Shown: positions 47,114 through 63,380 of the stretch, piece after piece
How the letters are laid out: every line of letters begins with the position of its first letter
Position numbering within the stretch: the first letter of the stretch is position 1
DNA from: Halieaceae bacterium
GTDB taxonomy: Bacteria > Pseudomonadota > Gammaproteobacteria > Pseudomonadales > Halieaceae
Length of the DNA stretch: 64,000 nucleotides
Assembly: GCA_902520195.1 (NCBI GenBank)
Contig: CABYND010000001.1
Location: 62,001-126,000, forward strand
Direction of reading: 5' to 3'
Program-made: the position numbers and the translations under genes
Notes under the pieces: generated by a model
Told to the model about the DNA's origin: nothing
Databases searched by the model: none
The model's input: the letters and a program-made list of their open reading frames with translations, nothing else

Positions 47114-47116
47114 CTG

Positions 47117-48223
47117 TTACTCCGGTAATCCGAGCACCGGCATGTCTGCCGGCGCAGTGAAGAATGAGTCGACGATGTTGGCAGGCACTGAAGCAAGGTC
47201 CGGATAGGCCCAAGCAGGGGATCTGTCTTTGTCTACCAGCAGCGCCCGCACGCCCTCGGCGAACTCGGGGTGGCGCATGATGTTGCAGCCCAATATCAGC
47301 TCCGACTCAAAGACCGCCTCGAGAGTGGCCTCCTGGGTTTGGTTGAGCTGGCGAAAAATCCAACTGGCGGCCAGCGGCGAGCCATGGGCAAAGCCATCAC
47401 GGGCCTTACACAGCCAGCTGTCGTCGCCCTGCCAGCCCATCACGCGGGCATGAATCGCTCCGAGATCACCGCCTGCCATCCACTCGTTAATCGTATCGAT
47501 ATGAGGCTCAAGCTGTGCTTCGGGTTGTTCAACGCCAGCCACGCAGTCGGCGAGCAAAGCGCCGACAAGCTCATGGTTCGCGGCGGCATCACCCGACCAC
47601 GCCCGTTTGGTTAGCTCCGCAAGGAAATCGACCTTCTGCTCGTTAGAGAGATAGTGTGTGCCCAAACCGCAATAGAGCGCATCGGTAGCATTGATGTGGG
47701 ATGAGGTCAGCGCCAGAAAGCGCCCCACCTGCCCGGGCATGCGATTCAGGAACCAGCTGCCACCGACATCCGGGAACAAAGCAATCGTGATTTCGGGCAT
47801 CCCGATACGCGTGCGCTCGCTGACTACGCGATATCGGCACCCGGCAAGAATACCGAGCCCCCCGCCCATGACCACGCCATGACCCCAGCAAATCAGAGGC
47901 TTGGCGTAGGTATGCAGCAGGTAATTCATGCGGTACTCGCGAGCAAAAAAGTGCTCGGCGTAATCGCAGGGGCCACCGGGCGTCTCGATACAGGAGTTAC
48001 GCAGCGCCTGCACATCACCGCCGGCACAAAAGGCTTTTTCGCCGGCGCCATCGATAAACACCGCGACCACCTTGTCATCGTCAGCCCAGGCTTCGAGCCG
48101 ATCGGTGATGATCTCCACCATCTCCCGGGTCAGGGAGTTCAGCGTCTTCGCAACGTTGAGAGTGAGCTGCCCAACCACCCGGTCTCCCGCGGGATGCTCG
48201 GCAACCAGCACGCTGTCGGTCAT
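47117..48223 (-). CDS. 3-hydroxyisobutyryl-CoA hydrolase (crotonase family)
   Basis: 368 residues from ATG 48223, which overlaps the preceding stop (ATGA); a GTG at 48235 is possible. Crotonase-fold signatures AFCAGGDVQAL and WGHGVVMGGGLGILAG provide the CoA oxyanion hole, and MPEITIALFPDVGGSWFLNRM is the HIBCH-type catalytic region. The length exceeds that of simple enoyl-CoA hydratases because of the C-terminal HIBCH extension. It removes CoA from 3-hydroxyisobutyryl-CoA to give free acid for MmsB. Confidence 0.9.
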   Translation of the reverse strand: MTDSVLVAEHPAGDRVVGQLTLNVAKTLNSLTREMVEIITDRLEAWADDDKVVAVFIDGAGEKAFCAGGDVQALRNSCIETPGGPCDYAEHFFAREYRMNYLLHTYAKPLICWGHGVVMGGGLGILAGCRYRVVSERTRIGMPEITIALFPDVGGSWFLNRMPGQVGRFLALTSSHINATDALYCGLGTHYLSNEQKVDFLAELTKRAWSGDAAANHELVGALLADCVAGVEQPEAQLEPHIDTINEWMAGGDLGAIHARVMGWQGDDSWLCKARDGFAHGSPLAASWIFRQLNQTQEATLEAVFESELILGCNIMRHPEFAEGVRALLVDKDRSPAWAYPDLASVPANIVDSFFTAPADMPVLGLPE

Positions 48224-49008
48224 TGATTTTTCCACTCGGGCTCACGCTTCTCGAGGAACGCGTTAGTGCCTTCCTGCTGATCCTCGGTCGAGAAGAGTGC
48301 GACAAACTCGTCGCGCTCCGCGACAAGGCCATCGGCGATCGCAATATTGCGCGCCGAGTGAATCAGACGTTTGCAAGCCGCCACCGAAGAAGGAGACTGA
48401 TTACCTACCTTGGCCGCCAGCGCGGTCGCGGTGGTCAGCGCCTCACCCGTTGGCACGACTTCCTCAACCAGCCCCAGCGTTTGCGCTTGCTGCGCACCAA
48501 TGCGCTCACCACAGAGGATCATGCGCTTGGCCCAGCCCTCACCCACCAGCTGGGTCAGCCGTTGGGTGCCACCGGCACAGGGCAGCAGGCCAACCCGCGC
48601 CTCGGGTAGCGCCAGCGCCGCCTGCTCTTCGGCAATGCGGATATCGCAGGCCAGCGCCACTTCCAGGCCGCCGCCCATCGCGAATCCATTGATAGCGGCA
48701 ATCGACACCCCCCGAAAATCGGCCAGCGTTTCAAACGCTTCGCCAAAGGCCTCGCCCACGGCCCGGGCCACATCCGCATCACCGGAAGCGAACTGGTTAA
48801 GATCCGCACCCGCCGAGAAGAATTTCTCACCCGCGCCCGTCAGCACTAGGGCGTAAACGGTGGGCTCTGCATTCAAGGCCTCGATCACGGCCTTGAGCGC
48901 CGGCAAGCTTTCACGATCCCAGGTATTGGCAGACGGGTTATCGATCACAACTTTGGCGACATTGCCCTCGATCGAGACTTTGATTTTTTCAGATGGACTG
49001 ATGCTCAT
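48220..49008 (-). CDS. Enoyl-CoA hydratase (methacrylyl-CoA hydration)
   Basis: 262 residues. Oxyanion-hole motif FSAGADLNQF, and the two catalytic glutamates of the hydratase are present: Glu116 in GGGLEVALACD and Glu136 in LPEARVGLLPCAGG. In this operon it would hydrate methacrylyl-CoA to 3-hydroxyisobutyryl-CoA. ATGA overlaps with both neighbours show tight translational coupling: dehydrogenase, then hydratase, then hydrolase. Confidence 0.9.
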   Translation of the reverse strand: MSISPSEKIKVSIEGNVAKVVIDNPSANTWDRESLPALKAVIEALNAEPTVYALVLTGAGEKFFSAGADLNQFASGDADVARAVGEAFGEAFETLADFRGVSIAAINGFAMGGGLEVALACDIRIAEEQAALALPEARVGLLPCAGGTQRLTQLVGEGWAKRMILCGERIGAQQAQTLGLVEEVVPTGEALTTATALAAKVGNQSPSSVAACKRLIHSARNIAIADGLVAERDEFVALFSTEDQQEGTNAFLEKREPEWKNQ

Positions 49009-50165
49009 TGAATGACCTCCAGAGCGCCGTCCATCAGCAACTTTCGGCCGACGATGACGCGCATAATTTCATTGGTTCCTTCGAGAATTTGATGCACTCG
49101 AGTGTCGCGTACGTAGCGCTCCATCGGATACTCCTTGATATAGCCATAACCGCCCAGCAACTGCAGGGCATCATTGCAGACTGTGAAGCCCACATCGGTG
49201 GCGAAGCGCTTGGCCATGGCACAATACGTGGTTGCCTGCGGGTCGTTGTTGTCCAGCTTGCTGGCGGCGAGCCGAATCATCTGCCGGGCTGCCACCAGCT
49301 CTGTCAGCATGTCGGCGAGCCTGAATTGGGTGTTCTGGAAATCCGCGATTGCGGTATCGAACTGCTTGCGATCCTGCACGTAGTCAGTCGCATCCTGAAT
49401 GGCCCGCTGTGCGGTACCCACGGAACAGGTCGCGATATTAATGCGCCCACCGTCCAGCCCTTCCATCGCTATGGCAAAACCCTGGCCTTCTTCACCCAAG
49501 CGGTTCGAGACCGGAACACGCACATTATCGAAGGTGATCATGCGCGTAGGTTGGGCATTCCAGCCCATCTTGTGTTCTTTCTTTCCGTACTCAATGCCCT
49601 CGGCATCCGCCGGTACCAGCAGCGCCGTGACCCCTTTCGGCCCCGCATCCGCGGTGCGGGTCATTACCACCAGTACATCGGTCTCGCCCGCGCCGGAGAT
49701 AAACACTTTGCTGCCATTGACGACATAGGCATCGCCATCGAGCACTGCACTGGTGCGCAAGCTGCCGGCGTCGGAACCTGCGCCTGGTTCAGTAAGGCAG
49801 TAAGACGCCAACTTTTCGCCCATCACTAATTCGGGGCACCATTCATCGACCGCGGCCTGCTGGCAGTACTTGCCGATCATGGCGGTCGCCATGTTGTGAA
49901 TGGTCAGAAATGCGGCGGTGGTCGTGCACCCCTTCGCGAGCTCTTCCACGATCAGACTGGCATCCAGACGTCCCATACCCAACCCCCCCGCAGCCTCGGG
50001 GGTATACATACCCATGAAGCCCAATTCGCCCGCGGCTTTGAGCGCGTCCTTGGCAAAAACGGACTCGGCGTCCCAATGCGCAGCGTGAGGCGCGAGCTCC
50101 TTGTCAGAGAAGGCCTTGGCGCTGGCTATGTAAGCCTGCTGATCATCGTTCAGTTCAAAGTTCAC
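49005..50165 (-). CDS. Acyl-CoA dehydrogenase, probable isobutyryl-CoA dehydrogenase
   Basis: 386 residues. MNFELNDDQQAYIASAKAF at the start, YCLTEPGAGSDAGSLRT and FISGAGETDVLVVMTRT in the FAD-binding region, and catalytic Glu362 in HQILEGTNEIMRVI. Similar to ACAD8-type isobutyryl-CoA dehydrogenases, and the downstream hydratase, HIBCH and MmsB define the valine pathway. It is promoter-proximal and lies 235 bp from the divergent aldehyde dehydrogenase; that gap (50166-50400) shows no repeat or gene I can support. Confidence 0.88.
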   Translation of the reverse strand: MNFELNDDQQAYIASAKAFSDKELAPHAAHWDAESVFAKDALKAAGELGFMGMYTPEAAGGLGMGRLDASLIVEELAKGCTTTAAFLTIHNMATAMIGKYCQQAAVDEWCPELVMGEKLASYCLTEPGAGSDAGSLRTSAVLDGDAYVVNGSKVFISGAGETDVLVVMTRTADAGPKGVTALLVPADAEGIEYGKKEHKMGWNAQPTRMITFDNVRVPVSNRLGEEGQGFAIAMEGLDGGRINIATCSVGTAQRAIQDATDYVQDRKQFDTAIADFQNTQFRLADMLTELVAARQMIRLAASKLDNNDPQATTYCAMAKRFATDVGFTVCNDALQLLGGYGYIKEYPMERYVRDTRVHQILEGTNEIMRVIVGRKLLMDGALEVIQ

Positions 50166-50400
50166 TCAGGGTGCTCCAACCGCTTGGGGCTATCGACACT
50201 GTGCGTGGCGAGCAAAAAGGCTTCGCTGCGCGGGCACACAGTATAAACCGATTATGGCTCAACCCGGCGTTTCGATACACCGGTGAAATCGATTGCAAGC
50301 CGCGTCAACCCTCAGTTTTTGGGATGAGTTCACTGGCGTGAGACGGCCGGGCGGTTTACCCTAAGTACTCGGTTTTTTGATGATTGGGGGATGGACCGTC

Positions 50401-51810
50401 ATGTCGCAGGATAACGGTGACGCCAAGGCATTTATCGCGGGTCTGGTTGCGCGATCGCGCGCCGCTCAGAAGCAGATCGAGCACTATTCGCAGGAGCAGG
50501 TCGATGCTCTGATCCGGGCGATGGTGTGGTCCGTGGCGCGGCCGGGCGTTGCGGAAGAAATCGCCCAATTCACCGTTGATGAGACCCAGCTTGGCAACTA
50601 TGACGGCAAGTTCCTGAAGATCCAGCGCAAGACCCGCGCGACCCTCCTCGACATCATTCATGACAAGTCCGTTGGCATCATTGAGGAATATCCCGAGCGT
50701 AATATCCGCGTGCTCGCCAAGCCGCTGGGCGTAATCGGCGCGCTGGCGCCCTCAACCAACCCGGAAGCGACCCCCGTCATCAAAGGCATTCACGCCGTCA
50801 AAGGCCGCAACTCGATCATCGTCGCGCCCCATCCCCGAGCCAAGCTGACCAACAAAAAGATCTGTGACCTGATGCGCGCCGCGCTGAAGAAAATGGGCGC
50901 ACCTGAGGACCTGGTGATCGGTATCGAAACACCCAGCCTGGAAACCACCAACGAATTAATGCGCCAGTGCGATCTGGTACTTGCGACAGGCGGCGGTGCC
51001 ATGGTGCACGCGGCTTACTCCAGTGGCTCACCCGCGCTGGGTGTTGGTGTCGGTAACGCCGTCATCACCGTGGATGACACGGCCGATCTTGACGCGGCAG
51101 CAGAGAAAATCCGCCTGTCTAAAACTTTGGATCTGGCGGCATCCTGCTCGTCGGATAACTCGGTGGTGCTGCTCGATGGCATATATGAACCCATGCTGGA
51201 GAAGCTAAAGGCGCAGGGTGGTTATCTCTGTAACGAGGAAGAGAAAGCCGCGCTTCGCAACACACTCTGGGATGAAGAGCTCCATCTTAATACCGCCATC
51301 GTGGCGCAACCCCCGGAAAAGATCGCCCAAATGGCGGGGCTATCGATTCCCGAGGAGACGAAATTCTTCATCGTGCCCGAGGAGGGTTGGGGTCCTGAGC
51401 ATCCCTTCTCTGGGGAAAAACTGTCGGTGATAATGGCGCTCTATCGCGCGCGCGATATCGATCACGCCATCGAACTCACCCAGAACATTCAGGCCTATCA
51501 GGGTCAGGGGCACAGCTGCGGCATTTACTCAAGCAGCGACGAGAACATCATGAAGCTGGCCGAGAACACCTACACATCCCGCGTGATGGTGAACCAGCCT
51601 CAAGCAGCGTCCAACAGCGGTAACGTCTGGAACGGCATGCGGCAAACGTTCTCTCTGGGCTGCGGTTCCTGGGGCGGCAATGGCACCAACAACAACATCT
51701 CCTGGCGCGATCTCATTAACGAGACCTGGGTCTCGATGCCGCTGGCTGAAAATAAGGTGATCCCCCCGGACGAAGAGCTGTTTGGCGACGTGATCAACCA
51801 GCTGGGCTAG
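50401..51810 (+). CDS. CoA-acylating aldehyde dehydrogenase (SauS/EutE type)
   Basis: 469 residues from ATG 50401; ATG 50377 would add eight. Catalytic Cys249 is in LAASCSSDNSVV and the cofactor region includes LATGGGAMVHAAY and GVGVGNAVITVDD. The family (with EutE, PduP and the AdhE N-terminus) converts an aldehyde plus CoA and NAD(P)+ to acyl-CoA. The closest named type is sulfoacetaldehyde dehydrogenase (acylating), but no other taurine/sulfonate genes are nearby, so the substrate is open. It leads a plus-strand oxidative run (P450, AhpD-like, PQQ dehydrogenase, cupin). Confidence 0.8.
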   Translation: MSQDNGDAKAFIAGLVARSRAAQKQIEHYSQEQVDALIRAMVWSVARPGVAEEIAQFTVDETQLGNYDGKFLKIQRKTRATLLDIIHDKSVGIIEEYPERNIRVLAKPLGVIGALAPSTNPEATPVIKGIHAVKGRNSIIVAPHPRAKLTNKKICDLMRAALKKMGAPEDLVIGIETPSLETTNELMRQCDLVLATGGGAMVHAAYSSGSPALGVGVGNAVITVDDTADLDAAAEKIRLSKTLDLAASCSSDNSVVLLDGIYEPMLEKLKAQGGYLCNEEEKAALRNTLWDEELHLNTAIVAQPPEKIAQMAGLSIPEETKFFIVPEEGWGPEHPFSGEKLSVIMALYRARDIDHAIELTQNIQAYQGQGHSCGIYSSSDENIMKLAENTYTSRVMVNQPQAASNSGNVWNGMRQTFSLGCGSWGGNGTNNNISWRDLINETWVSMPLAENKVIPPDEELFGDVINQLG

Positions 51811-51819
51811 CGCTAAATC

Positions 51820-53085
51820 ATGTCAAATCAGGGTGGGCGAGTAACAGATTCGGAGCTACCTGACCTGATGGATCCTGAGGTCCAGCAGTGCCCCTACGGG
51901 CTCTATCAAACCCTCCGGCATCACGCCCCATTGTATCGAATGCCCTCGACCGGGTTTCACTTGGTCACCAGCTATGAATTGGCGCGCGAGGTCATCAGGG
52001 CACCGGATCAGTACGTGAGCGGCGTGAGCCCAATGGCCCTGTCCGACGACGGTATCCCTCAGGAAATCATCGATATCTACGAGAAAGAAGGCTGGCTGCC
52101 GCTGGCCTCCTGCTCGACATCAGATCCGCCGCAGCACACACGGGTCAGAGGTTTTCTGGAGAAGCTCTTTACTGCAGAACGGGTCCGCGCCGCGACGCCC
52201 TCCATTGATGCCATCGCTGAGTCACTGCTCGACGAGCTTGAGGGGCGTTCGGAAGTGGAGTTTATTCAGGACTTCGCGCACCCCCTCCCGATGATGGTCA
52301 TTGCGGATCTGCTGGGTGTGCCGCGCGCTGACATTGGGCAGTTCAAAATCTGGTCTGACGCCATCGTTGAGCCTTTCAGCATGATGGCCACCCGGGAGCG
52401 CAGAATCGAATGCGCCCGGCTGGTGGTTGAGATGCAGGCCTACTTTGCTGACATGGTGGCAGAGCGGCGCAAAAACCCCCGCGACGATCTGATCAGCGAG
52501 GCCATTGATTACCGAGATCAGGACGGCGAGGCCTTCACCATTCAGGAGCTGATGACCATCATCACCATTGATCTCTTGGCCTCCGGCAACGAAACCACGA
52601 CAGCGGCTATTGGTTCGGGTTTGAAGCTGCTGATTGGGGACCCCGATGCGCTTAATGACGTGCTGGCCGAACCCGAGCTGATACCGACGCTCGCGGAGGA
52701 AATTCTGCGGCTGGAATCGCCAGCACAAGGCATGTTCAGGCGCTGCGCTCACAGTGGCAACCTCGCGGGGGTCAGCCTCGAAGAGGGCGAACTGCTGAAT
52801 ATTCGCTTTGGCGCAGCCAATCGCGATGAGGCGCAATTTTCAGAACCGGATCGAATCAACCTCCAACGCAAGAAACCGGGCAGTCACCTCGCATTTGGTA
52901 TGGGCCGGCATGTCTGTGTGGGTGCCGCACTGGCTCGTCAGGAAATCATCAGCGCGTTTCAGGCGCTGACCTGCCGCTACGATCGCTTCTGGTTGCTACC
53001 GGACCGTCCTGCGCCGGTCTACCAACCGAGCCTCTTTGGCCGTAATTTGCTGTCTCTACACGTTGGGTGGTTACCCCACCGATAG
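51820..53085 (+). CDS. Cytochrome P450
   Basis: 421 residues of a soluble bacterial class P450. I-helix oxygen-activation motif LLASGNETTTAAIG, ExxR in EEILRLES, and the heme-binding loop FGMGRHVCVGAALAR with Cys366. It would hydroxylate a hydrophobic substrate using ferredoxin and reductase encoded elsewhere. It starts 9 bp after the aldehyde dehydrogenase, so cotranscribed. The substrate is unknown; the neighbouring alcohol- and aldehyde-oxidising enzymes fit stepwise oxidation of an alkyl or terpenoid group. Confidence 0.92.
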   Translation: MSNQGGRVTDSELPDLMDPEVQQCPYGLYQTLRHHAPLYRMPSTGFHLVTSYELAREVIRAPDQYVSGVSPMALSDDGIPQEIIDIYEKEGWLPLASCSTSDPPQHTRVRGFLEKLFTAERVRAATPSIDAIAESLLDELEGRSEVEFIQDFAHPLPMMVIADLLGVPRADIGQFKIWSDAIVEPFSMMATRERRIECARLVVEMQAYFADMVAERRKNPRDDLISEAIDYRDQDGEAFTIQELMTIITIDLLASGNETTTAAIGSGLKLLIGDPDALNDVLAEPELIPTLAEEILRLESPAQGMFRRCAHSGNLAGVSLEEGELLNIRFGAANRDEAQFSEPDRINLQRKKPGSHLAFGMGRHVCVGAALARQEIISAFQALTCRYDRFWLLPDRPAPVYQPSLFGRNLLSLHVGWLPHR

Positions 53086-53172
53086 CATCGTCAGACGGAA
53101 CAAGTGGTCACGCCGTGAGCGCCCCTCTAGAATGCCAATTCAAATACGTGCATGACATAAAACGAGGGACAC

Positions 53173-53769
53173 ATGAGTCGCATCAGCTTTGTACCAACCT
53201 CCGAGTGGAGTGAAGAGCTCCGCACATTCGTCGCCGCCGACAGCGCGACCGAGCTGGAATTGGGCATCACACGGATGCTCGCCCACGCACCGGAACTCGC
53301 AATGGGTTTGCTTGGCTTTGGCGGGGCCATGACTACTAAAAGAACGCTCCCTGAGCGCCTGATCGAGCTCTTACGACTGCGCGTCGCCTCTCACAACCAG
53401 TGCCGGAGCTGCATGGCGATCCGTTACCGCGCGGCCAATGCCGATATTTCCGAGGCCGAGGTCTGCAGTTTGGAGCAGCCTCATGAAGCCGAGTCACTGG
53501 ACGACCGGGAGCGCCTTGCAGTTGAGCTGGGCGATCGATTCGCCTGTGATCATTTATCCATCGACGAGGCGTTTTTTGGGGAGCTTAAAGCGCTCTTTTC
53601 GGAGGCTGAAATCGTGGAGCTACTGATGCATTGCGCGCTCTATGTCGGGGTGGGCCGACTGGCCGCGGTGCTGGATATGACCGAAGACCTTCCCGAGGGT
53701 TTCAACTTGCCCTTCGGCCAAGGTCACCACGTCACGCCGACCTCGGGTGAACCCGTGGTGGTGAGGTAA
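53173..53769 (+). CDS. Carboxymuconolactone decarboxylase / AhpD-like family protein
   Basis: 198 residues with the CMD redox motif CRSCMAIRY (Cys77, Cys80) after LIELLRLRVASHNQ, and a C-terminal YVGVGRLAAVLD helix. This is the alkylhydroperoxidase-like form of the family. ATG 53173 is 11 bases after GAGGGA. It ends 5 bp before the PQQ dehydrogenase start and so belongs to the same operon. It may protect against peroxides generated by the oxidative enzymes around it; direct catalysis on a lactone cannot be ruled out. Confidence 0.8.
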   Translation: MSRISFVPTSEWSEELRTFVAADSATELELGITRMLAHAPELAMGLLGFGGAMTTKRTLPERLIELLRLRVASHNQCRSCMAIRYRAANADISEAEVCSLEQPHEAESLDDRERLAVELGDRFACDHLSIDEAFFGELKALFSEAEIVELLMHCALYVGVGRLAAVLDMTEDLPEGFNLPFGQGHHVTPTSGEPVVVR

Positions 53770-53774
53770 ACAGG

Positions 53775-55862
53775 GTGACAATAACTTTCTCTGGGTATCG
53801 CCTTGTCGCGCGCGATCACCCTTCTGCTCTAGCGGCTGGGGCGCATAAAAGCCCGCGGGGCATCGTGCTCCTTTTCGCGCTGCTGGCCGCACTGCTGGTC
53901 GCGCCCCAGGCTTTAACAGCGCCTTATCAAGGTTGGTCCCTGCCCGGCGCGGATGAGGGCGGTGGGCACTTCAGTCACGCGACGCAAATTACGGCAGACA
54001 ATGTCACCGATCTCGAGATTGCGTGGACGCATCGCTCGGGTGACTTCAGAGAAGGTGAGAACTTCATTGGTGGGCTAAGCGGCGAGGCGCCGTTGCAATC
54101 ATCGTGGCAGGCTACGCCCGTTCTTATCGAAGACCATTTGTATCTCTGCACGCCTTTTAACCGGATTCTAGCGATTCACGCCGAAACCGGCGCCGAGCGC
54201 TGGTCCTACTTCCCCAACATCGATCTGGAAAGCTTTCCTATGCCACGCTGTCGCGGCGTGACCCAATGGACTGACGAGCGCATCCCACCGACCGACCCCT
54301 GCCATCGCGTTGTCATTGCGCCAATCATGGATGCGCGGGTCGTAGGGCTCGATGCGACCACCGGCCAGACCTGCCCGTTTGGTGAGGTAGCGGAACTTGA
54401 CCTAAGCAAAGGCCTTGGCCCCTATGAGGCCGGGTTTTACATGCTGAATACCCCGCCGGCAATTACCGGCAATACGCTGATCACGGGCGGTTCAGTCGCA
54501 GATAACATCACCACCGCCGTCCCCAGTGGCGTGGTGCGCGCCTACGATTTGACCTCAGGCAACCTGCTGTGGGCCTGGGAGCCCGTCGTCGCCGTAGAAC
54601 CCTCAGACGCCGCCATAGCTGACGAGGATGGCGATAGTTCCCCAGCGACAGAGGGCGCCACAGATCAGCGCTATCAGCAGGGCACGACCAACTCCTGGTC
54701 CTACCTGTCGGTCGACCCCGAACTGGGCCTGGTCTATGTCCCCACCGGCAATACCTCGCCCGACTACTATGGCGGGCACCGCGGCAACCTCGATTACTAC
54801 TCAAGCTCGGTAGTGGCGCTGTCGATCGCCACGGGAGAGGTGGTGTGGCACTTCCAAACTGTGCATCACGACATCTGGGATTTTGATGTGCCCTCCCAGC
54901 CAACCCTCTTTGAGGCAGAGATCAAAGGCCGCACGGTCAAGGGCTTGGCCCAGACCACGAAGCAGGGTTATGTCTTTCTGCTCGACCGGGTGACAGGCGA
55001 ACCACTTTTCCCGGTCGAGGAAGTGCCGATGCCACAAGGAACCGTGCCCGGAGACTACACGTCTCCTACCCAGCCGGTCCCCACCAAGCCGCGCTCGTTA
55101 TTTGATTTGCCCGGTGATAGAGATCCCGTCTGGGGCTTGGTGCCCTGGGACAAATGGGCCTGCGAGGACACGCTCGCCAATTTGCGTTACGAGGGGCCCT
55201 TTACCCCTGCCGCGCTGGAGGGAGCGCTGCACATGCCCAGCGCCTTTGGCGGACAAAACTGGGGGGGGCCGTCGATTGATCCCGTTCGCCAGAAACTGGT
55301 GGTCAACACGCTCCACATGGGAACGGTGTTGCAATTGATTCCCCGGGACCAGTGTGACGGTGAGGGGCCGGAACCGGTGGCGGATGGCCCATTTTTGCTC
55401 GAACCCTCGGAGGGCACGCCCTACTGCAATCGACGCTGGCTCGGTTTTGTTTCCCCGCTCGGCGTGCCGTGTACGCCGCCGCCCTGGGGGACCCTTACGG
55501 GTATTGACCTGCAGACCGGCAATGTGGACTGGCAGGTGCCGCTGGGCACCACGCGGGATATGGCGCCCTGGCCGTTCTGGTACATTCAGGGCTCCCCCAA
55601 TCTCGGTGGCCCGGTCAGCACGGCCAGTGGCCTCACTTTCATTGGCGCGACCACCGATCATTTCTTGCGCGCCTTTGATACCGACACCGGAGAGGAACTG
55701 TGGAAAGGCCGATTGCCGACTTCCGGGCATGGGCTACCCATCACCTACCAACTCAGCGAGAGCGGCAAACAGTATGTGGTGATCGCCGCAGGTGGTCACG
55801 CCGCGATGGGCACACCCCCAGGCGACTACCTGATTGCGTTCACGCTACCTGACGAATCTTGA
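53775..55862 (+). CDS. PQQ-dependent dehydrogenase (quinoprotein, glucose/quinate-type without membrane domain)
   Basis: 695 residues, GTG start. A hydrophobic export segment (GIVLLFALLAALLVAPQALT) is followed by an eight-bladed propeller. Recognisable elements are LEIAWTHRSGDF, the repeated W-motif segments (AIHAETGAERWSY; AFDTDTGEELWKG), PMPRCRGVTQW, and a C-terminal AAGGHAAMGTPPGDYLIAF characteristic of quinate/glucose-type PQQ enzymes. It oxidises an alcohol or aldose in the periplasm and passes electrons to ubiquinone or cytochrome. PQQ synthesis genes are not in the window. Confidence 0.88.
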   Translation: MTITFSGYRLVARDHPSALAAGAHKSPRGIVLLFALLAALLVAPQALTAPYQGWSLPGADEGGGHFSHATQITADNVTDLEIAWTHRSGDFREGENFIGGLSGEAPLQSSWQATPVLIEDHLYLCTPFNRILAIHAETGAERWSYFPNIDLESFPMPRCRGVTQWTDERIPPTDPCHRVVIAPIMDARVVGLDATTGQTCPFGEVAELDLSKGLGPYEAGFYMLNTPPAITGNTLITGGSVADNITTAVPSGVVRAYDLTSGNLLWAWEPVVAVEPSDAAIADEDGDSSPATEGATDQRYQQGTTNSWSYLSVDPELGLVYVPTGNTSPDYYGGHRGNLDYYSSSVVALSIATGEVVWHFQTVHHDIWDFDVPSQPTLFEAEIKGRTVKGLAQTTKQGYVFLLDRVTGEPLFPVEEVPMPQGTVPGDYTSPTQPVPTKPRSLFDLPGDRDPVWGLVPWDKWACEDTLANLRYEGPFTPAALEGALHMPSAFGGQNWGGPSIDPVRQKLVVNTLHMGTVLQLIPRDQCDGEGPEPVADGPFLLEPSEGTPYCNRRWLGFVSPLGVPCTPPPWGTLTGIDLQTGNVDWQVPLGTTRDMAPWPFWYIQGSPNLGGPVSTASGLTFIGATTDHFLRAFDTDTGEELWKGRLPTSGHGLPITYQLSESGKQYVVIAAGGHAAMGTPPGDYLIAFTLPDES

Positions 55863-55872
55863 GGCGAATCTC

Positions 55873-56313
55873 ATGAATGCACCCATTACCACGACACCTG
55901 CCGGCGACATCCTTGCAAACATTCACGAGCTCGAGTGGCTCGATGTGGGTGGCGGCACCCAGTTCAAGGTGCTCCGGATCTGCGAAAAAACCGGTCAGTG
56001 GGCGCTCTATGTGCATATGGAACCCGGAGCGCGATTTCAGGCGCATCGCCACGAGGGTACCGGGCAGTTTTTTATTCTGAGTGGTGAATTAATCTACGAC
56101 GTCGGCACCGCCCCCGCTGGGACCTATGGCTTTGAACCGGTGTTCGCCGAGCACAGCGACGCGCATTGCGTGGTGGAAACCGAGATGCTGTTTCTTGGTG
56201 AAGGTGCTGTCACCTATTTCACCCCAGAAGGCGAAGTTGACTACGTGTTCAATGCGATGACTTTGAAGGCCGCTCAGGAAGGGGCAGCACAGATAGATCT
56301 CTGCCCTGACTGA
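55873..56313 (+). CDS. Cupin-domain protein
   Basis: 146 residues from ATG 55873, 10 bp after the PQQ dehydrogenase stop. The first cupin motif has FQAHRHEGTGQFFILSGEL, with two His and Glu as likely metal ligands. The second motif is weaker (AEHSDAHCVVETEMLFLGEG). It resembles cupins of the ChrR/2,4'-dihydroxyacetophenone-dioxygenase type, which may bind Zn or Fe. Its role is probably in the same catabolic operon, as a dioxygenase or isomerase; I cannot decide. It ends convergently 17 bp from the mini-E2 gene. Confidence 0.75.
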   Translation: MNAPITTTPAGDILANIHELEWLDVGGGTQFKVLRICEKTGQWALYVHMEPGARFQAHRHEGTGQFFILSGELIYDVGTAPAGTYGFEPVFAEHSDAHCVVETEMLFLGEGAVTYFTPEGEVDYVFNAMTLKAAQEGAAQIDLCPD

Positions 56314-56330
56314 AGGCAATTAAAAAACGA

Positions 56331-56828
56331 TCACCCGATAGCCCGGTCAACATCCTCTTTAGTAATGCGGCCTTCCGGCCCCGATCCCTCTATTTGCTCA
56401 GGGTCGATGCCCGCCCTCTCTAACTTGCGACGCAAAGCGGGCGCAATGCGCGTAGCCGAAGCGCGATCATGCTTGGCAATCTGGACCTCGGGTAATGCAG
56501 AGATTGTCTCCTCCTCGGCAACAGCATCCTCGTCACTGCTCTGTGCGGCGATAAACGCCTCAATCGCATCGTCCGTCACAGCTTCAGATGCGATAACGCC
56601 AATCAAATAACCCACCGGCAACTCTTCGCCCACCTCGGCCAGGATTCGCACCAGCGTGCCTGAGCTTCGCGCCTCAAAGCTATTCACAATTTTATCCGTT
56701 TCGATATCGACGATTTCCTCGCCGGCCTTCACGGTGTCTCCCTCCTCTTTGTGCCAGGCGACGATCGTGCCTCCCGTCATTTCAATGCCCCACTTGGGAA
56801 TCGTCACCGCATCCAGACTCTTACTCAT
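56331..56828 (-). CDS. Mini-E2: lipoyl domain plus E3-binding domain, no acyltransferase core
   Basis: 165 residues. Residues 1-80 are a lipoyl domain with the attachment Lys46 in DIETDKIV. Residues 81-125 form an acidic linker. Residues 126-164 are a peripheral subunit (E3/E1)-binding domain with TRIAPALRRKLE and GSGPEGRITKEDV. A normal E2 would continue with a 230-residue acyltransferase carrying HxxxDG, but the gene ends at a TGA and only 17 bp separate it from the convergent cupin. It should shuttle an acyl group from the E1 subunits encoded upstream and dock E3. The ATG overlaps the quinoprotein stop by 8 bp. Confidence 0.9.
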   Translation of the reverse strand: MSKSLDAVTIPKWGIEMTGGTIVAWHKEEGDTVKAGEEIVDIETDKIVNSFEARSSGTLVRILAEVGEELPVGYLIGVIASEAVTDDAIEAFIAAQSSDEDAVAEEETISALPEVQIAKHDRASATRIAPALRRKLERAGIDPEQIEGSGPEGRITKEDVDRAIG

Positions 56829-58728
56829 CGCGGGTACTCCTTGCGAGGTCCGCCTCCGGCGGTAATGAAAAGACCATCAGGGCGTTGCCGGGCATGCGGG
56901 CACCGAACTGGTACCCCGAATTGATTAGCACATGCCCTTTGTAAAGCACGGGGCCATCAGACTCGATGGAGCCACCCAATGCGGTATCACCCGATACTGA
57001 TTCGAAGTCACCGAAGGTGTCGAACGACCAGAGGATCTCGCCAGAGAGGCTGTCGTAAACATTGAGGTTGCCGTCGAGGCTACCGGCAAAGACCAGCTGG
57101 TCAGTGCTGGTAATCGCCGCGGACATGCCTTGATCACAGACGGGGATTGGCGACTTACCGTCGCAATCAGCCACGCTGGGCGTATACCACCGCACCTCAC
57201 CCGAGGTGGGGTCGAGCGCATGGATCCCGGGAGAAACCGGCCCGCTAAAACGGCCGGTGATCGTCGTGTCAGCGATCGGCACAAACAACGAATCACCATT
57301 TGCTGACATGCCCCAGTGGACACCTCCAAGAAAGCCACCGCGACCGACCTTGTTATGCCAGACAACTGCACCCCCCTTGTCAGGGTCCAGCGCGTAGACA
57401 TCGCCGCTCTTCTGACCCACCAGCAAGTAATCGCGCTCGCCACCGGACCACAGCACTATCGAGGCGCCGATGTCCAGATCAGGTCCGTCTTCTTCCGGGC
57501 AGTTGGCAGCCTCACCAATAAAGCACGCCATATTCCAGGCATCGCCACCCAGCAGCTGCTTCGCCCACTGACGCTCGCCAGTGGCCAAAGAAAACGCCAA
57601 TACCGCATCACTGGTATCGGCTGCCGGTGAGGTATAGGACTCGCCGGTGCCGACATAAAGCACGCCACGCTCAGCATCGATGGTCGGGCTGTTCCAGACC
57701 GGCGCACCCGCAGGGCCTTTTCGCGCCGCACCGAAGAGGTTCGTCTCGCCGGTCTCCACCGCTGGCTCATCGATCACATGGGCACGCCAGTTCACCTCAC
57801 CTGAAGCGGCATCTACCGAGACCACGCCGCCGCGGAAGGTGCAGCAGGCGTAGCCGGGATCGGCTGCGGTCGCCCACTCTGACGAGGAGATAGGCACGTA
57901 AAGGCTCCCCTCATGAAGCTTGGGAGAGCCCGTGATCGTCGCATCGGGATGACCCCCGACTGACGAGCGCCATATCAGAGAGCCGTCGCTCGCATCGATG
58001 GCGTGCACCGCTGCGCTGAAATCACCCATATAGAGCACTGGGTCGTCGCGGCCCGGCACCTGACCCAGCGACAGACTGCTGCGGACTTCGGAGCCGGCCG
58101 AGTAGGTCCAGTGCGCGCATCCTGATTCGAGATCGAGGGCATAAATATCGCCCGACTGCGACCCGACAAAGATCACACCATCATGCACCAGAGGCTGTGA
58201 TCGCGCGCGCAGAGCGCCCGGATACGCAAACACCCATTTGAGCGCGAGTCGATCCACGTTATTACGGTCCAGCCCTGCACCATCACTATGTCGGTGGTTT
58301 TTGGCATTGCCACCCCAGCCCTGCATGGCTGCAGCATCGGCGCTGGCGAGTTCGCTCATCGGGTCCGTGCAGGCCAGAATCGGTTTTGGTGGAGCCATCG
58401 CTTCTCCTGCCAAAAAGCCTGCCAGCACCTCGCGCTCGGACGCCGACAACGCCGAGGCCTGCGCGCGCATGACGCCGTTATTCATCGCATTCAATATGGT
58501 GTCAGCACCGATCGTTGAAAAGGTAATCATGTGCGGCGCGCGCGGCACCTGGCCGTCATGGCAGGCAGCGCAGTGCGCTTGATACAGCGCCATACCGTCT
58601 GCCGATCCTGCGATCGCACCTTCAACAGGCTGTCCCGAGGCGGAGGGTGCCGCATGAGCTAGCGGCATCAACGCCGCTGCAGCCATCACCTGACTTATTC
58701 GCCGCATCAGACTTTTCACTGTGATCAT
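56821..58728 (-). CDS. Cytochrome c-PQQ quinohemoprotein, polyvinyl-alcohol-dehydrogenase-like
   Basis: 635 residues. After a signal peptide comes a cytochrome c domain with heme motif CAACH (Cys53, Cys56, His57). Then comes a PQQ beta-propeller containing WGGNAKNHRHSDGAGLDRNN and repeated blade motifs (GDIYALDLESGCAHW; GDVYALDPDKGGAVVW). An adjacent-cysteine pair (YACCTF, about residue 297) is the disulfide seen in quinoprotein alcohol dehydrogenases. The order, with cytochrome at the N-terminus, is that of polyvinyl-alcohol dehydrogenase (EC 1.1.2.6). It oxidises secondary alcohol groups in the periplasm and passes electrons through its heme. Encoded between E1 beta and mini-E2 in one operon. 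Confidence 0.85.
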   Translation of the reverse strand: MITVKSLMRRISQVMAAAALMPLAHAAPSASGQPVEGAIAGSADGMALYQAHCAACHDGQVPRAPHMITFSTIGADTILNAMNNGVMRAQASALSASEREVLAGFLAGEAMAPPKPILACTDPMSELASADAAAMQGWGGNAKNHRHSDGAGLDRNNVDRLALKWVFAYPGALRARSQPLVHDGVIFVGSQSGDIYALDLESGCAHWTYSAGSEVRSSLSLGQVPGRDDPVLYMGDFSAAVHAIDASDGSLIWRSSVGGHPDATITGSPKLHEGSLYVPISSSEWATAADPGYACCTFRGGVVSVDAASGEVNWRAHVIDEPAVETGETNLFGAARKGPAGAPVWNSPTIDAERGVLYVGTGESYTSPAADTSDAVLAFSLATGERQWAKQLLGGDAWNMACFIGEAANCPEEDGPDLDIGASIVLWSGGERDYLLVGQKSGDVYALDPDKGGAVVWHNKVGRGGFLGGVHWGMSANGDSLFVPIADTTITGRFSGPVSPGIHALDPTSGEVRWYTPSVADCDGKSPIPVCDQGMSAAITSTDQLVFAGSLDGNLNVYDSLSGEILWSFDTFGDFESVSGDTALGGSIESDGPVLYKGHVLINSGYQFGARMPGNALMVFSLPPEADLARSTRDE

Positions 58729-58753
58729 CTCTGGGTCGCTTCTTCCGTTCTTG

Positions 58754-59734
58754 TCAGTAAGACAACGTTTCTTCTATCGCCGCCATGACCCGCTCCACGC
58801 TGGGCACATAGTTGGCCTCGAGGCAGGGCGTCGCTGGCACCGGCGTATGGGGTGAGGTCACCCGCTTGACCGGCGCATCAAGGGTATCGAAACCGCGCTC
58901 CACCGCCAGCCCCGCGATCTCCGAGGCCATGCTGCAGAAGGGATTCGATTCATCCACGACCACCAGACGCCCGGTTTTGGTGAGGCTTTCCAGCACCGAG
59001 CCTTCATCCAGCGGCGACAACGTGCGTAAATCAATGACCTCGGCGCTGATACCTTTTTGTGCCAGCTGGGTGGCCGCTTCTTCAGCGATCACCGCGGTGC
59101 GCGACATGCCCACGATCGTGATGTCCGAGCCTTCAACAGCGGTGCGTGCCTGACCAAAAGGTAGCAGGTACTCACCTTCGGGCACCTCGCACTCATCCAT
59201 ATAGAGGGCTTTGTGCTCGCAGAAGATCACAGGGTCATCATCGCGGATTGCCGTGGTCAGCAGACCCTTGGCATCGGCGGCGTTGGCGGGCGTCACCACC
59301 TTAATCCCTGGTATCGCGGCCAGCAGCGGATACAGGATCTGCGAATGCTGCGGACCAGTACCCGTACCGGCGCCAATCATGGTGCGAATCACCACCGGCG
59401 TGCGTGCCTGGCCGCCAAACATGTAACGGAACTTGGCGATCTGATTGAGGATCTGGTCGAGACACACGCCCAAAAAGTCCACGAACATGAGCTCGGCAAC
59501 CGGGCGCAGCCCAGTCAGTGCCGCGCCACCTGCGGCCCCCACAATGGCAGACTCGGTAATCGGCGTATCAATCACCCTGTGCAGACCAAACTTGGCGGGC
59601 AGCCCATCGGTAATGCCGTACACGCCACCCTGGTCACTGGCCACGTCTTCACCGAGCACAATCACCCGCTCGTCGCGCTCCATTTCTTGATGGAGGGTCT
59701 GATTAATCGCTTCACGAATCGACATTTTCATCAC
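58754..59734 (-). CDS. 2-oxoacid/acetoin dehydrogenase-type E1 beta subunit
   Basis: 326 residues. VIVLGEDVASDQGGVYG, ITESAIVGAAGGAALTGLRPV and GAGTGTGPQHSQ match E1 beta of the AcoB/PdhB/BkdB group, with the closest overall pattern to AcoB. It forms an alpha2-beta2 thiamine-diphosphate enzyme with the preceding alpha subunit. The start ATG overlaps the alpha stop by 4 bp. The substrate is not fixed by sequence: acetoin or another alpha-hydroxyketone, or a 2-oxoacid. Confidence 0.9.
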   Translation of the reverse strand: MMKMSIREAINQTLHQEMERDERVIVLGEDVASDQGGVYGITDGLPAKFGLHRVIDTPITESAIVGAAGGAALTGLRPVAELMFVDFLGVCLDQILNQIAKFRYMFGGQARTPVVIRTMIGAGTGTGPQHSQILYPLLAAIPGIKVVTPANAADAKGLLTTAIRDDDPVIFCEHKALYMDECEVPEGEYLLPFGQARTAVEGSDITIVGMSRTAVIAEEAATQLAQKGISAEVIDLRTLSPLDEGSVLESLTKTGRLVVVDESNPFCSMASEIAGLAVERGFDTLDAPVKRVTSPHTPVPATPCLEANYVPSVERVMAAIEETLSY

Positions 59735-60705
59735 TGAAGCCTCCCCTCATAGTGGATGTACACATCGGTATAAAGCTTATCGGGTGTCGGATCAGCGGCG
59801 GCATAGGTCACCTCAAAGCCGCGGTCAATCTCCTCGAGAATGGCAGCATTGATCTCGGCGATCTTTTCTTCAGTCAGCGCCGCGGCACGAGGATCCGCGA
59901 GGAAGCGGGGCAGCGGGTCGCTGACCGCGCGCTCCGCGTCGAGCTCCGCCTGATTGCGGTAGGCTTGGGCATCACCCTCGAAGTGGCCGTAATAACGATT
60001 GCACACCGCCTCGATGGCGGTCGGTCCACCACCCTCACGGCCCCGCATTATGGCCCGCTGGCAGGCGTCATACATGGCAAAGAAATCACTGCCATCGACC
60101 ACCTCAGCGGGCATGCCAAATGCACCAGCGCGCTCGGCAATGCGGCCGTCGGGCTTGGGGCTTTTGGTGAATTCCGCATACCGGTTGTTCTCATACATGA
60201 AAATCATCGGCAGCTGCAGCACCACCGCGAGATTCAAGGACTCGGCAACAGTGCCCTGATCCGAGGCGCCATCACCAATAAAGGCCATTGAAACCGCGCC
60301 GTTACCCAGCGTTTTGGCGGTCAGCGCAGCACCCGCAGCAATTGGAGGCCCGCCCCCCACAATCGCATTGGCGCCAAGCATGCCCTTGGACATATCGGCA
60401 ATGTGCATCGAGCCGCCTTTGCCATTGCAGAGGCCGTCTTCTTTGCATGCGAGCTCGAGCAGCATCGCCTCGATTTCGCAGCCTTTGGCGATGCAGTGGC
60501 CATGGCCACGATGGGTGCTGGCGATGTAATCCTCATTGGTCATATCGAGACAGGCGGCGACCGCGATGGCCTCCTGGTTGCGATAGATGTGGATGAACCC
60601 GGGCAACTTGCCCTGTTGGTATTCAGAGCGCATGCGCTCCTCAAACTCGCGGATGGTTTTCATCAGCCGATAGGCGTCGGCCAGTTTTTCAGGTGATATG
60701 TCCAT
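59731..60705 (-). CDS. 2-oxoacid/acetoin dehydrogenase-type E1 alpha subunit
   Basis: 324 residues. The TPP-binding motif GDGASDQG begins at residue 144, with the distal NN at 173-174, and RGHGHCIAKG and NGKGGSMHIAD are typical of the AcoA/PdhA family. The length matches AcoA. It decarboxylates a 2-oxoacid or cleaves an acyloin, passing the acyl group to lipoyl. It is the first gene after the terminator at 60740-60763 and leads alpha-beta-quinoprotein-miniE2 in one overlapped set. GGGGGCGG precedes the ATG at 60705. Confidence 0.9.
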   Translation of the reverse strand: MDISPEKLADAYRLMKTIREFEERMRSEYQQGKLPGFIHIYRNQEAIAVAACLDMTNEDYIASTHRGHGHCIAKGCEIEAMLLELACKEDGLCNGKGGSMHIADMSKGMLGANAIVGGGPPIAAGAALTAKTLGNGAVSMAFIGDGASDQGTVAESLNLAVVLQLPMIFMYENNRYAEFTKSPKPDGRIAERAGAFGMPAEVVDGSDFFAMYDACQRAIMRGREGGGPTAIEAVCNRYYGHFEGDAQAYRNQAELDAERAVSDPLPRFLADPRAAALTEEKIAEINAAILEEIDRGFEVTYAAADPTPDKLYTDVYIHYEGRLQ

Positions 60706-60739
60706 GAGACCGCCCCCGAAGGTGTTTCAAAGACTGGGC

Positions 60740-60763
60740 AAAGAAAGGGCCCCAGAGGGGCCC
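60740..60763 (-). terminator. Hairpin with T-rich tail between TonB receptor and E1 alpha gene
   Basis: On the minus strand GGGCCCC, loop TCT, GGGGCCC followed by TTTCTTT. The receptor stop is 22 bp upstream and the E1 alpha start is 35 bp downstream. It may end the receptor transcript fully or partly, leaving the downstream genes at a lower level. Confidence 0.7.
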
Positions 60764-60785
60764 CAAGAATACTGCCACGGATCAA

Positions 60786-63311
60786 TCAGAAGCTGTATCC
60801 GATCTGGACCCCGTACTCACGCGGCGGTCCGAAGCGAGAGAAGTTCCATAACGTCGCCACAGGGTTGGCCGATACGCGATAACGCTCATCAGTGAGGTTC
60901 TTGCCGTAGACCGAAATCTCAAAGCCCTGAGTGCCGGTGTACGTGATGTAACCGTTCACCAGCGTACGCTCCTCAAGCTGGGTATTGGCCTTCTGCTTGA
61001 TCACAGGATTTGCAGCGGTGCCGCCCTGAACATTTGCCGGGAAAGAGCTTGTCTGCGCGTCGTCCTGATAGTGCATGTTCACGTTGTAAGTGATCATGGC
61101 GCCACTGGAGAGATCCTGGAAGTAGCTCACGCCGATGCCATAATTGAGCTCGGGTGAGAACGGTACCTCGAGGCCACTGAGATCCGGATTGATCTGACCG
61201 CCCGCACCCGTGATACCTAGGTCCGCCGGGTTAATACCGGGACGATAGTCATCGTATTCATGATCCAACCAACCAAGATTACCGTCGATGCGAATGTTGT
61301 CTGTCACCGCCCACTGCATCTCGACTTCGATACCCTGCGCGGTGGACTCGCCTACGTTAACGGCTTGGGTTTCCTGAAACGTGTTACCCGCGGCGTCCTT
61401 GATCGTCACAACCGTGTCACGCTGCAGGCTCTCGTACGTCGTGTTGAAGTAAGCGGCATTCAAGCGAAGCGAGCCATCAAGAAGGTCGGCTTTGACACCG
61501 ATCTCGATGTTCTCGTTTTCTTCCGCATCGTAGGCCGAACATGAAGTCGGCGAACCGCAGGTCTCAGAGAAGCCACCTGCGACAAAGCCAGTGGCAAAGC
61601 TTGCGTAGCCCATCATATCGTCGGTGAATTTGTAGTCCGCCACAATGCGGAACGTGGTCTTGGTCCAGGTTTCAGAGTTCTTCTGCACGTTACCAAATGC
61701 AGACTCGGGTAGCGGGTTAGTGAAAGGACCGTCCCACTGATCGAGCGTAATGAAGTTACTAACGGGGTTGCCGCCACCGCCACCCAGATTAAGTCGAACA
61801 AAGTCCTTCTCGTCGTGGGTATATCGCACGCCACCGGTCAGCGTCAGACGGTCAGTGACCTCAAACGATCCATCGCCATAGACGGCCCAGGTCTTGCGAT
61901 CCTGAGAGGTATATTGAATCTCATAAGTTTCACGGTAGAAGTCGGCGGCCGCCAAGGGCAGAAAGAAACCGAGGTTACCGAAGACAACGAACTCGAGATC
62001 GTCGTTGTACATCGCGGCCCCACTCACAAAGTTGAAGGGTCCGTCGAACTGGCTGGCCACTCGCAGCTCCAACTGGCTTGTCTCACGCGTGGTGTTTCGG
62101 CTTGCGTCATACAGCGACGTGTAGGCCTCACCGGTATAGGTACTGGCGAGAATCTCGTCCTGGTCGCGCATCCCGGTGATGGCTTTGACGACATAGTTAC
62201 CGAGGTCAAACTCCATATTCAAATAGATGCCGTCAGCATCAATCTGGTGACCGCTGGCCATATCAATCGCTTTGGTCTGGGTATAGCTCTGGCCGGTAAT
62301 GAAGGGATCGCTGATGCCTTGATCCTGCCAGCCCGGGAATCCGATAATGGGCCAGATATAGCCCTCGCCTGAAGGAGTATCGTTGGCGGTGGCAGGCGTT
62401 TCTGAGTCATCATCAACGTGCTCAAAGATCAAGTCTGCCGCCATCCAGTCGTTGGGTTCCCAGCGGAACTTCAACTTGCCTGCTAGCACGTCTTTACCGC
62501 CAATGTTCCGACCATCTCCTGTGGTGGGATAGGTCGAACGAATGCTATCAGTGGACGGTGAATTGGGGTCACCCGTGACTTCACTACAGGCAAAGCACAA
62601 AAGGTCGCCGCCCATAGGCTTCGTATTCGACCAGTAGCCATCGGTGTAGTCGCGGATCACAGACAATCGGGCTGCCAAAGTGTCACCCAATGGGACATTG
62701 ATCGCGAACTTGAACTTCTCAATATCGCTGTCATTACTGGTGAACTGACCATAATTCACTTCGAACCTACCAGCGAGCTCCCCACCCACCTCGGGCTTGA
62801 TAGTGGTGAAGGCGATCGCGCCGCCCGTAGTATTCTTACCAAACAGCGTGCCCTGTGGGCCGCGGAAAATTTCGACCTGTTCTATGTCAAAGATCTCAAC
62901 AAACTGCGACTGCACGTGGTTGAACGCGTAGTCATCAACCGTCAAACCCACCGACGGATCCTTGGTCACCAGAATTGAGATAAAGCCCGTGCCGCGCATG
63001 CCACCACCGATCGCGTTGAAGCCGTTCTGCGGTGTGAGCGTCACGTTGGGAGAGAGCTGCGCCAGCTCGGTCACGTCATTCTGGAAGGTTTTCTCCAGCT
63101 GCGCCGCGGTAATGGTGCTGACCGCAATCGGCAGATCCTGCTGGGACACGTCGCGCTTGGTACCCGTTACGATAACCTCTTCCAGCGCCGAGGCAGTCAC
63201 CTCGCCATCATCTTGAGCCAGTGCAGGCAGTGCCTGTGAAGCGATGGCGACTGCTAGAGACAGCGCCATTTTGCGAGCGGGAAACCGCCCGAATCGGGTT
63301 TTGGTCGTCAT
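60786..63311 (-). CDS. TonB-dependent outer-membrane receptor linked to the E1/quinoprotein cluster
   Basis: 841 residues from ATG 63311 (MTTKTRFGRFPARKM); an ATG at 63356 opens earlier but lacks a leader-like start. Signal peptide (LSLAVAIASQALPALA), TonB-box region LEEVIVTGTKRDVSQQDLPI, plug signature IFRGPQGTLFGKNTTGGAI near residue 135, and a barrel ending in EYGVQIGYSF. It imports the presumed substrate or cofactor of the operon that follows in the same direction. Two palindromes lie upstream of its start. Confidence 0.92.
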   Translation of the reverse strand: MTTKTRFGRFPARKMALSLAVAIASQALPALAQDDGEVTASALEEVIVTGTKRDVSQQDLPIAVSTITAAQLEKTFQNDVTELAQLSPNVTLTPQNGFNAIGGGMRGTGFISILVTKDPSVGLTVDDYAFNHVQSQFVEIFDIEQVEIFRGPQGTLFGKNTTGGAIAFTTIKPEVGGELAGRFEVNYGQFTSNDSDIEKFKFAINVPLGDTLAARLSVIRDYTDGYWSNTKPMGGDLLCFACSEVTGDPNSPSTDSIRSTYPTTGDGRNIGGKDVLAGKLKFRWEPNDWMAADLIFEHVDDDSETPATANDTPSGEGYIWPIIGFPGWQDQGISDPFITGQSYTQTKAIDMASGHQIDADGIYLNMEFDLGNYVVKAITGMRDQDEILASTYTGEAYTSLYDASRNTTRETSQLELRVASQFDGPFNFVSGAAMYNDDLEFVVFGNLGFFLPLAAADFYRETYEIQYTSQDRKTWAVYGDGSFEVTDRLTLTGGVRYTHDEKDFVRLNLGGGGGNPVSNFITLDQWDGPFTNPLPESAFGNVQKNSETWTKTTFRIVADYKFTDDMMGYASFATGFVAGGFSETCGSPTSCSAYDAEENENIEIGVKADLLDGSLRLNAAYFNTTYESLQRDTVVTIKDAAGNTFQETQAVNVGESTAQGIEVEMQWAVTDNIRIDGNLGWLDHEYDDYRPGINPADLGITGAGGQINPDLSGLEVPFSPELNYGIGVSYFQDLSSGAMITYNVNMHYQDDAQTSSFPANVQGGTAANPVIKQKANTQLEERTLVNGYITYTGTQGFEISVYGKNLTDERYRVSANPVATLWNFSRFGPPREYGVQIGYSF

Positions 63312-63352
63312 GGCATGTTCCTGTTGTGTTTTTTTAATGTATTGCGGCGCTA

Positions 63353-63380
63353 ACACCAGTGGTGTCGCGGCTCAAGCCGC
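63353..63380. promoter_or_regulatory. Two adjacent palindromes upstream of the TonB receptor
   Basis: ACACCA-G-TGGTGT (63353-63365) and, one base later, GCGGCT-CA-AGCCGC (63367-63380). Both are perfect. They lie 42-69 bp upstream of the receptor start and about 94-121 bp before the divergent M24 gene, so either operator sites or a 5' UTR structure. Confidence 0.45.

Follow-up and report, generated by a model that had tools for sequence, protein, structure and literature searches.

The stretch of DNA analyzed here (the window, 64,000 nt) belongs to a genome of 2.14 Mb in 57 contigs that is 69% complete (G000), and carries on its reverse strand a conserved operon whose first gene encodes a TonB-dependent receptor of 856 aa (60786–63356). 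It is followed by E1-alpha (324 aa, 59731–60705; Pfam E1_dh), the best plasmid matches of which include acetoin-dehydrogenase loci; E1-beta of the acetoin/2-oxoacid dehydrogenase type (326 aa, 58754–59734; Transket_pyr and Transketolase_C); a fusion of cytochrome c with a PQQ-type propeller, here called the quinoprotein (635 aa, 56821–58728; Cytochrome_CBB3 and PQQ); and a core-less E2 of 165 aa (56331–56828), the mini-E2. The genes for E1-alpha and E1-beta overlap by 4 bp and those for the quinoprotein and the mini-E2 by 8 bp; the earlier note had described this five-gene cluster with both overlaps, and our coordinates and Pfam domains agree. Convergent to the operon, on the forward strand, lie an acylating aldehyde dehydrogenase-like gene (477 aa, 50377–51810; nearest models of the SauS, AdhE and EutE type, below their cut-offs), a cytochrome P450 (421 aa, 51820–53085) that several gamma- and alphaproteobacterial loci likewise have close to the operon, a protein assigned by Pfam to the carboxymuconolactone-decarboxylase family (198 aa, 53173–53769), a second PQQ dehydrogenase (695 aa, 53775–55862; nearest model the glucose/quinate/shikimate family, below cut-off) and a ChrR-type cupin (159 aa, 55834–56313) whose stop codon is 17 bp from that of the mini-E2. 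The last two are conserved neighbors of the operon.

The mini-E2 has a lipoyl domain at about residues 5–82 (Biotin_lipoyl, 57.1 bits), with the target-lysine stretch ETDKIVN present, and a peripheral subunit/E3-binding domain (PSBD) at about residues 124–163 (E3_binding, 42.1 bits, profile positions 3–35 of 36), after which the frame stops. These two domains are its entire Pfam content; the C-terminal acyltransferase core is absent, as the earlier note had claimed. A core profile built from relatives found no match in the six frames of the 64-kb window (frames of at least 40 aa, E ≤ 1e-3), and tblastn of a relative's core against the window returned chance matches only (best E 0.54), so neither search found a core or core remnant elsewhere in the window. 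No linked E3 gene was found in the operon.

For the quinoprotein, Pfam and a structure model bear out the proposed fusion of a cytochrome part with a PQQ-dehydrogenase-like propeller. It has a CAACH motif near a hydrophobic N-terminus that by eye resembles a signal peptide, and belongs to a widespread family with 484 relatives found. The predicted structure, of moderate confidence (mean pLDDT 72, from 14 sequences), matches PedH and quinohaemoprotein alcohol dehydrogenases with a best TM-score of about 0.5. Alignment with 1kv9 places an invariant WN at the WD position and no CC opposite the 1kv9 CC, the WD and CC being what we take to be PQQ-site or catalytic residues, while a different CC is invariant across the 14 sequences; for these reasons the catalysis of the quinoprotein may not be that of the enzymes with solved structures. 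Since PqqE scored above its cut-off in one of nine cluster-bearing genomes, several of them incomplete, the PQQ itself may be scavenged. As to the idea that the TonB receptor imports PQQ, no chain named PqqU occurred among its 21 solved-structure matches, which is not decisive.

E1-alpha matched 294 plasmid records, all at less than 60% identity, and six were examined. The top match, from Klebsiella (54.8%), lies in an E1/E1/E2/E3 cluster, and no gene in the displayed stretch is labelled as acetoin-related; two Rhodococcus loci and one Acinetobacter locus (52–53%) carry acetoin reductase and butanediol dehydrogenase, and the Niveispirillum and Sphingobium loci (50–51%) lie beside ring-hydroxylating dioxygenases and have no acetoin genes. 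E1-beta is 56–57% identical to the Niveispirillum and Sphingobium loci versus 54% to the acetoin loci, and its tree joins the acetoin rows to the quinoprotein-linked rows weakly (support 86, drawn open). The best curated model for E1-alpha is pyruvate dehydrogenase (PDH), below cut-off, and its scores to the solved E1-alpha chains of PDH and BCKDH are weaker than those to the plasmid loci. The earlier label of acetoin-type E1 is borne out insofar as the alpha subunit resembles acetoin-dehydrogenase loci, though the beta subunit has slightly higher identity to others. On this resemblance, an acyloin or diketone is a reasonable candidate substrate. The plasmid contexts in Aromatoleum, Sphingopyxis and Niveispirillum gave no substrate clue, and none of the stretches retrieved for more distant relatives (L057–L065) has the acylating aldehyde dehydrogenase.

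Focusing on the operon in related genomes, we searched for the mini-E2 in 140 genomes of the family (E ≤ 1e-12), examining the surroundings of the best matches, and in 390 genomes of the order (E ≤ 1e-16, with at most nine candidates scored per genome), and defined operon-type E2 by an E-value of about 1e-37 or better. Among the matches listed, at least 21 genomes of the window's own genus, Luminiphilus, have an operon-type E2. Core sequence is held in 18 of these 21 and is undamaged in 16, the other two being G095, where both E2 copies are frame-shifted, and G096, where the contig runs out within the core; it is absent in the window genome and in G086 (isolate Ww543), and in G073 the contig ends ahead of the core region. 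Thus, contrary to what the earlier note had implied, the cluster is not core-less by nature. Residues 1–164 of the mini-E2 are up to 73% identical to core-bearing operon E2s of Luminiphilus and Seongchinamella relatives, the relatives' cores that were tested match 2-oxoacid_dh, and the Luminiphilus cores compared carry the DHRxxNG motif. As far as contigs reach, the order of TonB receptor, E1-alpha, E1-beta, quinoprotein and E2, with the cupin and PQQ dehydrogenase convergent, is conserved; about 20 related loci share it, with some differences, so the cluster is not a chance arrangement. The genomes L062 and L064, which belong to a different Halieaceae genus, have this order with changes, and G067 and G095 each have two copies. 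Exceptions are G061, which has no quinoprotein between E1-beta and E2 or elsewhere in its 15.6-kb stretch, and G081, where the receptor is distant (33% identity); in a few relatives' stretches the cupin was not called. The survey of synteny in Halieaceae that had been proposed therefore supports the five-gene set, but not the lack of a core in most of its members.

Every short or edge frame examined among the matches listed in the 140 family and 390 order genomes failed to add a further core-less gene. The frames of G014, G049, G050, G079, G223 and G235 are cut by contig ends, as are those of G024 and G042, which were judged by coordinates only; in G025 the E2 is frame-shifted, and the candidate in G053 is a 77-aa lipoyl gene adjoining a distant E1 pair. 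An apparent lack of E2 in L084 coincides with a run of N at the E2 start. L073 is the G086 contig (identical as reverse complement) and was counted once.

Both core-less Luminiphilus genes terminate identically (RAIG-stop), and the cupin stop follows at a distance of 17 bp in one genome and 18 bp in the other. Between them the mini-E2 has a dS of 0.49 and a dN/dS of 0.084, with values of 0.04 for the lipoyl domain, 0.34 for the linker and 0.023 for the PSBD; in the neighboring genes dN/dS is near that of the whole mini-E2, at 0.057 (quinoprotein), 0.019 (E1-beta) and 0.07 (cupin). E1-beta and quinoprotein frames are intact in both genomes, and E1-alpha of G086 is cut by its contig end. Because of the shared end, the dS of about 0.5 and the purifying selection (dN/dS of about 0.08), the core loss is, judged on sequence, fixed, old and lineage-specific, with the remaining protein under constraint, and does not reflect decay or misassembly. 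Constraint on the operon E2 may already have been generally relaxed before the loss, since in 10 of 10 genome pairs, which are not independent of one another, dN of the operon E2 exceeds that of the paralogous E2 in core and lipoyl domain alike; as the lipoyl dN is raised in all ten, relaxation specific to the core was rejected.

A second core-less form was found among 78 loci around the best 80 of 484 quinoprotein relatives. In two loci of the PS1 clade/Rhodobiaceae (L098, L103) the operon is the same except that a 101-residue lipoyl-only protein occupies the E2 position (Pfam was run on L098 only); the two proteins are 92% identical, with a dS of 0.98 and a dN/dS of 0.053, and at the threshold used the gene occurs in these 2 of 28 PS1-order genomes. 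In a 56-row E1-beta tree built by a quick method, with SH-aLRT as its sole support measure, a 16-row group (98) contains the window pair but not the PS1 pair. Both pairs belong to a 21-row clade (100); of its 17 remaining rows, 15 have a core, frame-shifted in L083, and two are cut off (L081, L095). Because the two pairs sit apart in a clade that is otherwise core-bearing or cut off, the core was lost twice independently, with the carrier kept under selection. Elsewhere in the tree, 12 of the 56 rows lack a same-strand lipoyl gene in the 4.5 kb downstream; a quinoprotein gene is at most 2.5 kb away in 11 of these 12 and 3.5 kb away in L108. Six-frame scans of the whole loci detected no E2 domain in seven of the 12 (L115, L116, L119, L122, L134, L136 and L140); the sole E2 of L101, L117 and L147 is that of another E1/E1/E2 complex, and L108 and L126 have a core fragment at the locus end. 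Some of the more distant E1/quinoprotein clusters therefore have no linked E2.

According to the earlier note, the acyl group must leave by a route other than the usual E2 core, but the genomes do hold other cores. G000 has two, SucB, beside a dihydrolipoyl dehydrogenase (E3), and the E2 of a paralogous E1/E1/E2 complex, which is 42% identical to the mini-E2 over the lipoyl/PSBD part. G086 has AceF beside AceE and a second E2 of 418 aa, together with the E1 pair of the paralogous complex (93–94% identical) on a contig that ends where its E2 would follow; both PS1 genomes with the lipoyl-only gene have three E2 cores each. Each of the four core-less genomes thus has a core to draw on in trans. 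The genome-wide search that had been suggested hence turned up cores and an E3 in G000, and, the genome being 69% complete, a dedicated core may lie elsewhere in it.

We give about an even chance to the reading that the mini-E2 is an adaptor, an ordinary E2 that lost its core and ferries acyl groups to the core of another E2. The operon would link a catabolic acetoin-type E1 to a periplasmic quinohaemoprotein; the ancestor would have carried an ordinary E2, the core of which was deleted in the window lineage while the lipoyl domain and PSBD were retained. E1 would dock on the PSBD and reductively acylate the lipoyl group of the mini-E2, the acyl group would pass to CoA at the borrowed core of another cellular E2, the lipoyl group would be reoxidized by a shared E3, and the neighboring acylating aldehyde dehydrogenase would take up the aldehyde product. 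Docking, core borrowing, the acyloin or diketone substrate and aldehyde removal are all inferred steps, as are the substrate import by the TonB receptor and the direction of flow that the earlier note proposed. A borrowed core is favored because other E2 cores exist in the core-less genomes, and acceptance by the paralogous core is putative given the 42% identity noted above. Docking through a PSBD would not be essential to every core-less form, since the PS1 protein lacks this domain. On this reading, specificity for E1 would lie in the lipoyl domain, and the core would be the part that can be replaced. That the core is lost while selection keeps the carrier suggests that such large complexes may borrow a part from a neighbor instead of having it built in. 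More tentatively, and with somewhat less than even confidence, a marine acetoin-type E1 family may repeatedly shed the E2 core and keep a mobile lipoyl carrier that acts in trans or core-free, with the lipoyl domain as the indispensable partner of E1.

The main rival, proposed in the earlier note, uses no E2 core at all: the lipoyl protein would be a free acyl carrier, its thioester released by a thioesterase, an acyltransferase or hydrolysis. Two independent losses with the carrier kept are compatible with it, as are the 12 E1-beta rows without a nearby downstream lipoyl gene, 11 of them close to a quinoprotein; we nevertheless consider it unlikely, as at least one E2 core was found in 10 of 10 genomes searched and Pfam, applied to 14 proteins of the window (46220–63356), names no thioesterase among them. 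There is, however, an ECH_2 protein (47117–48235), whose family includes a CoA-thioester hydrolase. It is improbable that the E1 is instead a lyase or carboligase that transfers no acyl group, leaving the lipoyl protein as a redox or regulatory leftover: the related clusters without a linked E2 would fit, and PMC12247030 describes the in vitro use of Ao:DCPIP OR, an acetoin-type E1, as a carboligase, but lipoyl domain and PSBD are strongly constrained, as is the lipoyl-only form, which speaks for a lipoyl domain that functions. More improbable again is a decaying remnant of a complex that is dead or disappearing, for although the operon E2 evolves fast in relatives and both G095 copies are frame-shifted, a dN/dS this low at such a dS, with lipoyl domain and PSBD constrained, is not expected of a pseudogene, and the surrounding operon is intact. 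An assembly or binning artefact is scarcely credible, since, although the Luminiphilus and PS1 sequences without a core were taken from many-contig drafts and the Ww543 contig is 4.6 kb, with cov 2.6 in its title, the second Luminiphilus genome ends at the same codon despite 11% divergence at the DNA level, with E2 and cupin frames intact on both sides; the relatives do have a full core, as the earlier note had envisaged for a truncation by assembly, but the truncation itself is genuine.

Returning to the adaptor reading, the E2 core is usually regarded as the scaffold required for a complex of the 2-oxoacid dehydrogenase type. What we describe is a lineage-specific, selected and repeated loss of that core in a complex whose kind is otherwise known. 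Two independent, selected losses would be natural test cases for the need of a dedicated scaffold in active-site coupling, and suggest how small marine genomes may pare a very large complex down to the part that is specific. The portions of the open-access literature covered, including parts of PMC11996626, PMC10100682, PMC7284936 and PMC12124388, hold no description of the set of E1, quinoprotein and core-less E2.

By comparison with known systems, the quinoprotein resembles the polyvinyl alcohol (PVA) dehydrogenase-like quinohaemoproteins in having an N-terminal CxxCH followed by a propeller, and is 36% identical to a PQQ protein of Sphingopyxis sp. 113P3, a PVA degrader, where it is encoded on a 243-kb plasmid. 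The pva operon of that strain is placed on the chromosome in PMC4611681; the plasmid gene is not a proven PVA dehydrogenase, and the window cluster has no link to PVA. The acetoin dehydrogenase complex is similar in its E1-alpha (52–53% identity to the Rhodococcus and Acinetobacter plasmid loci), whereas the known loci have an E2 of about 510–520 aa with a core and a linked E3; the window has a quinoprotein between E1-beta and E2, a mini-E2 without a core and no linked E3. The operon E2s of Luminiphilus and Seongchinamella hold the same operon position and keep the 2-oxoacid_dh core that the mini-E2 has lost. The E3-binding protein of mitochondrial PDH (protein X) has a C-terminal domain joining the core; the mini-E2, unlike it, ends after the PSBD and has no core-integrating domain. 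The two are alike in pairing lipoyl and subunit-binding domains without transferase activity, as protein X is described in PMC10156792. In the Corynebacterium PDH-ODH hybrid, as outlined in PMC7568260, two E1s associate with one E2-E3, so that there too an E1 relies on shared parts; the part shared there is the lipoyl-bearing E2, whereas here the core is missing and the lipoyl part is kept.

In the PS1-clade genomes, lipoyl domain and acyltransferase core were also seen apart in a PDH-like complex (L177:8162-10522 and L178:900-1856). The E1-beta of this complex carries a lipoyl domain at its N-terminus, and its 318-aa E2 has a peripheral subunit-binding domain (PSBD) and a core, with no lipoyl domain found in that E2; these genomes thus have a second complex in which lipoyl domain and core sit on separate polypeptides. 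As a separate observation, another Halieaceae genome (G053) has a free-standing 77-aa lipoyl gene immediately 3' of a distant E1-alpha/beta pair (L172:6689-8898).

The operon itself varied among relatives. G061 has no quinoprotein between E1-beta and E2 (L055:9243-11558), with the remaining members present. In Seongchinamella a 420-aa M24 metallopeptidase-family protein is encoded between the TonB receptor and E1-alpha (L062:4807-6069), and ORFs of 419-420 aa occupy the equivalent place in L064, from the same group, and in PS1-clade loci L098 and L103. The E2 of the four-contig genome G025 is read as two overlapping frames, lipoyl versus PSBD-core (L169:9974-11166), reflecting either a frame shift or a sequencing error. 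Module genes were also present in two MAG records titled Klebsiella pneumoniae (L106 and L126), titles that look wrong.

Beside the operon in the window, a block convergent to it adjoins genes for an acyl-CoA dehydrogenase, two enoyl-CoA hydratase-family proteins and a 3-hydroxyisobutyrate dehydrogenase-like protein (46220-50165), a set we take to be valine-degradation-like.

For cofactor supply, PqqE scored above the curated cut-off in only one (G059) of the nine operon-bearing genomes searched and was absent at that cut-off from G000 (the window's genome), G086, G093, G111, G062, G032, G140 and G141, which suggests PQQ scavenging, with the reservation that several of the genome assemblies are incomplete. 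The adjacent cysteines and WD motif of 1kv9, a solved quinohaemoprotein alcohol dehydrogenase structure, are missing from relatives of the window quinoprotein (56821-58728); a CC pair (residues 295-296) and a WN show no variation across 14 sequences.
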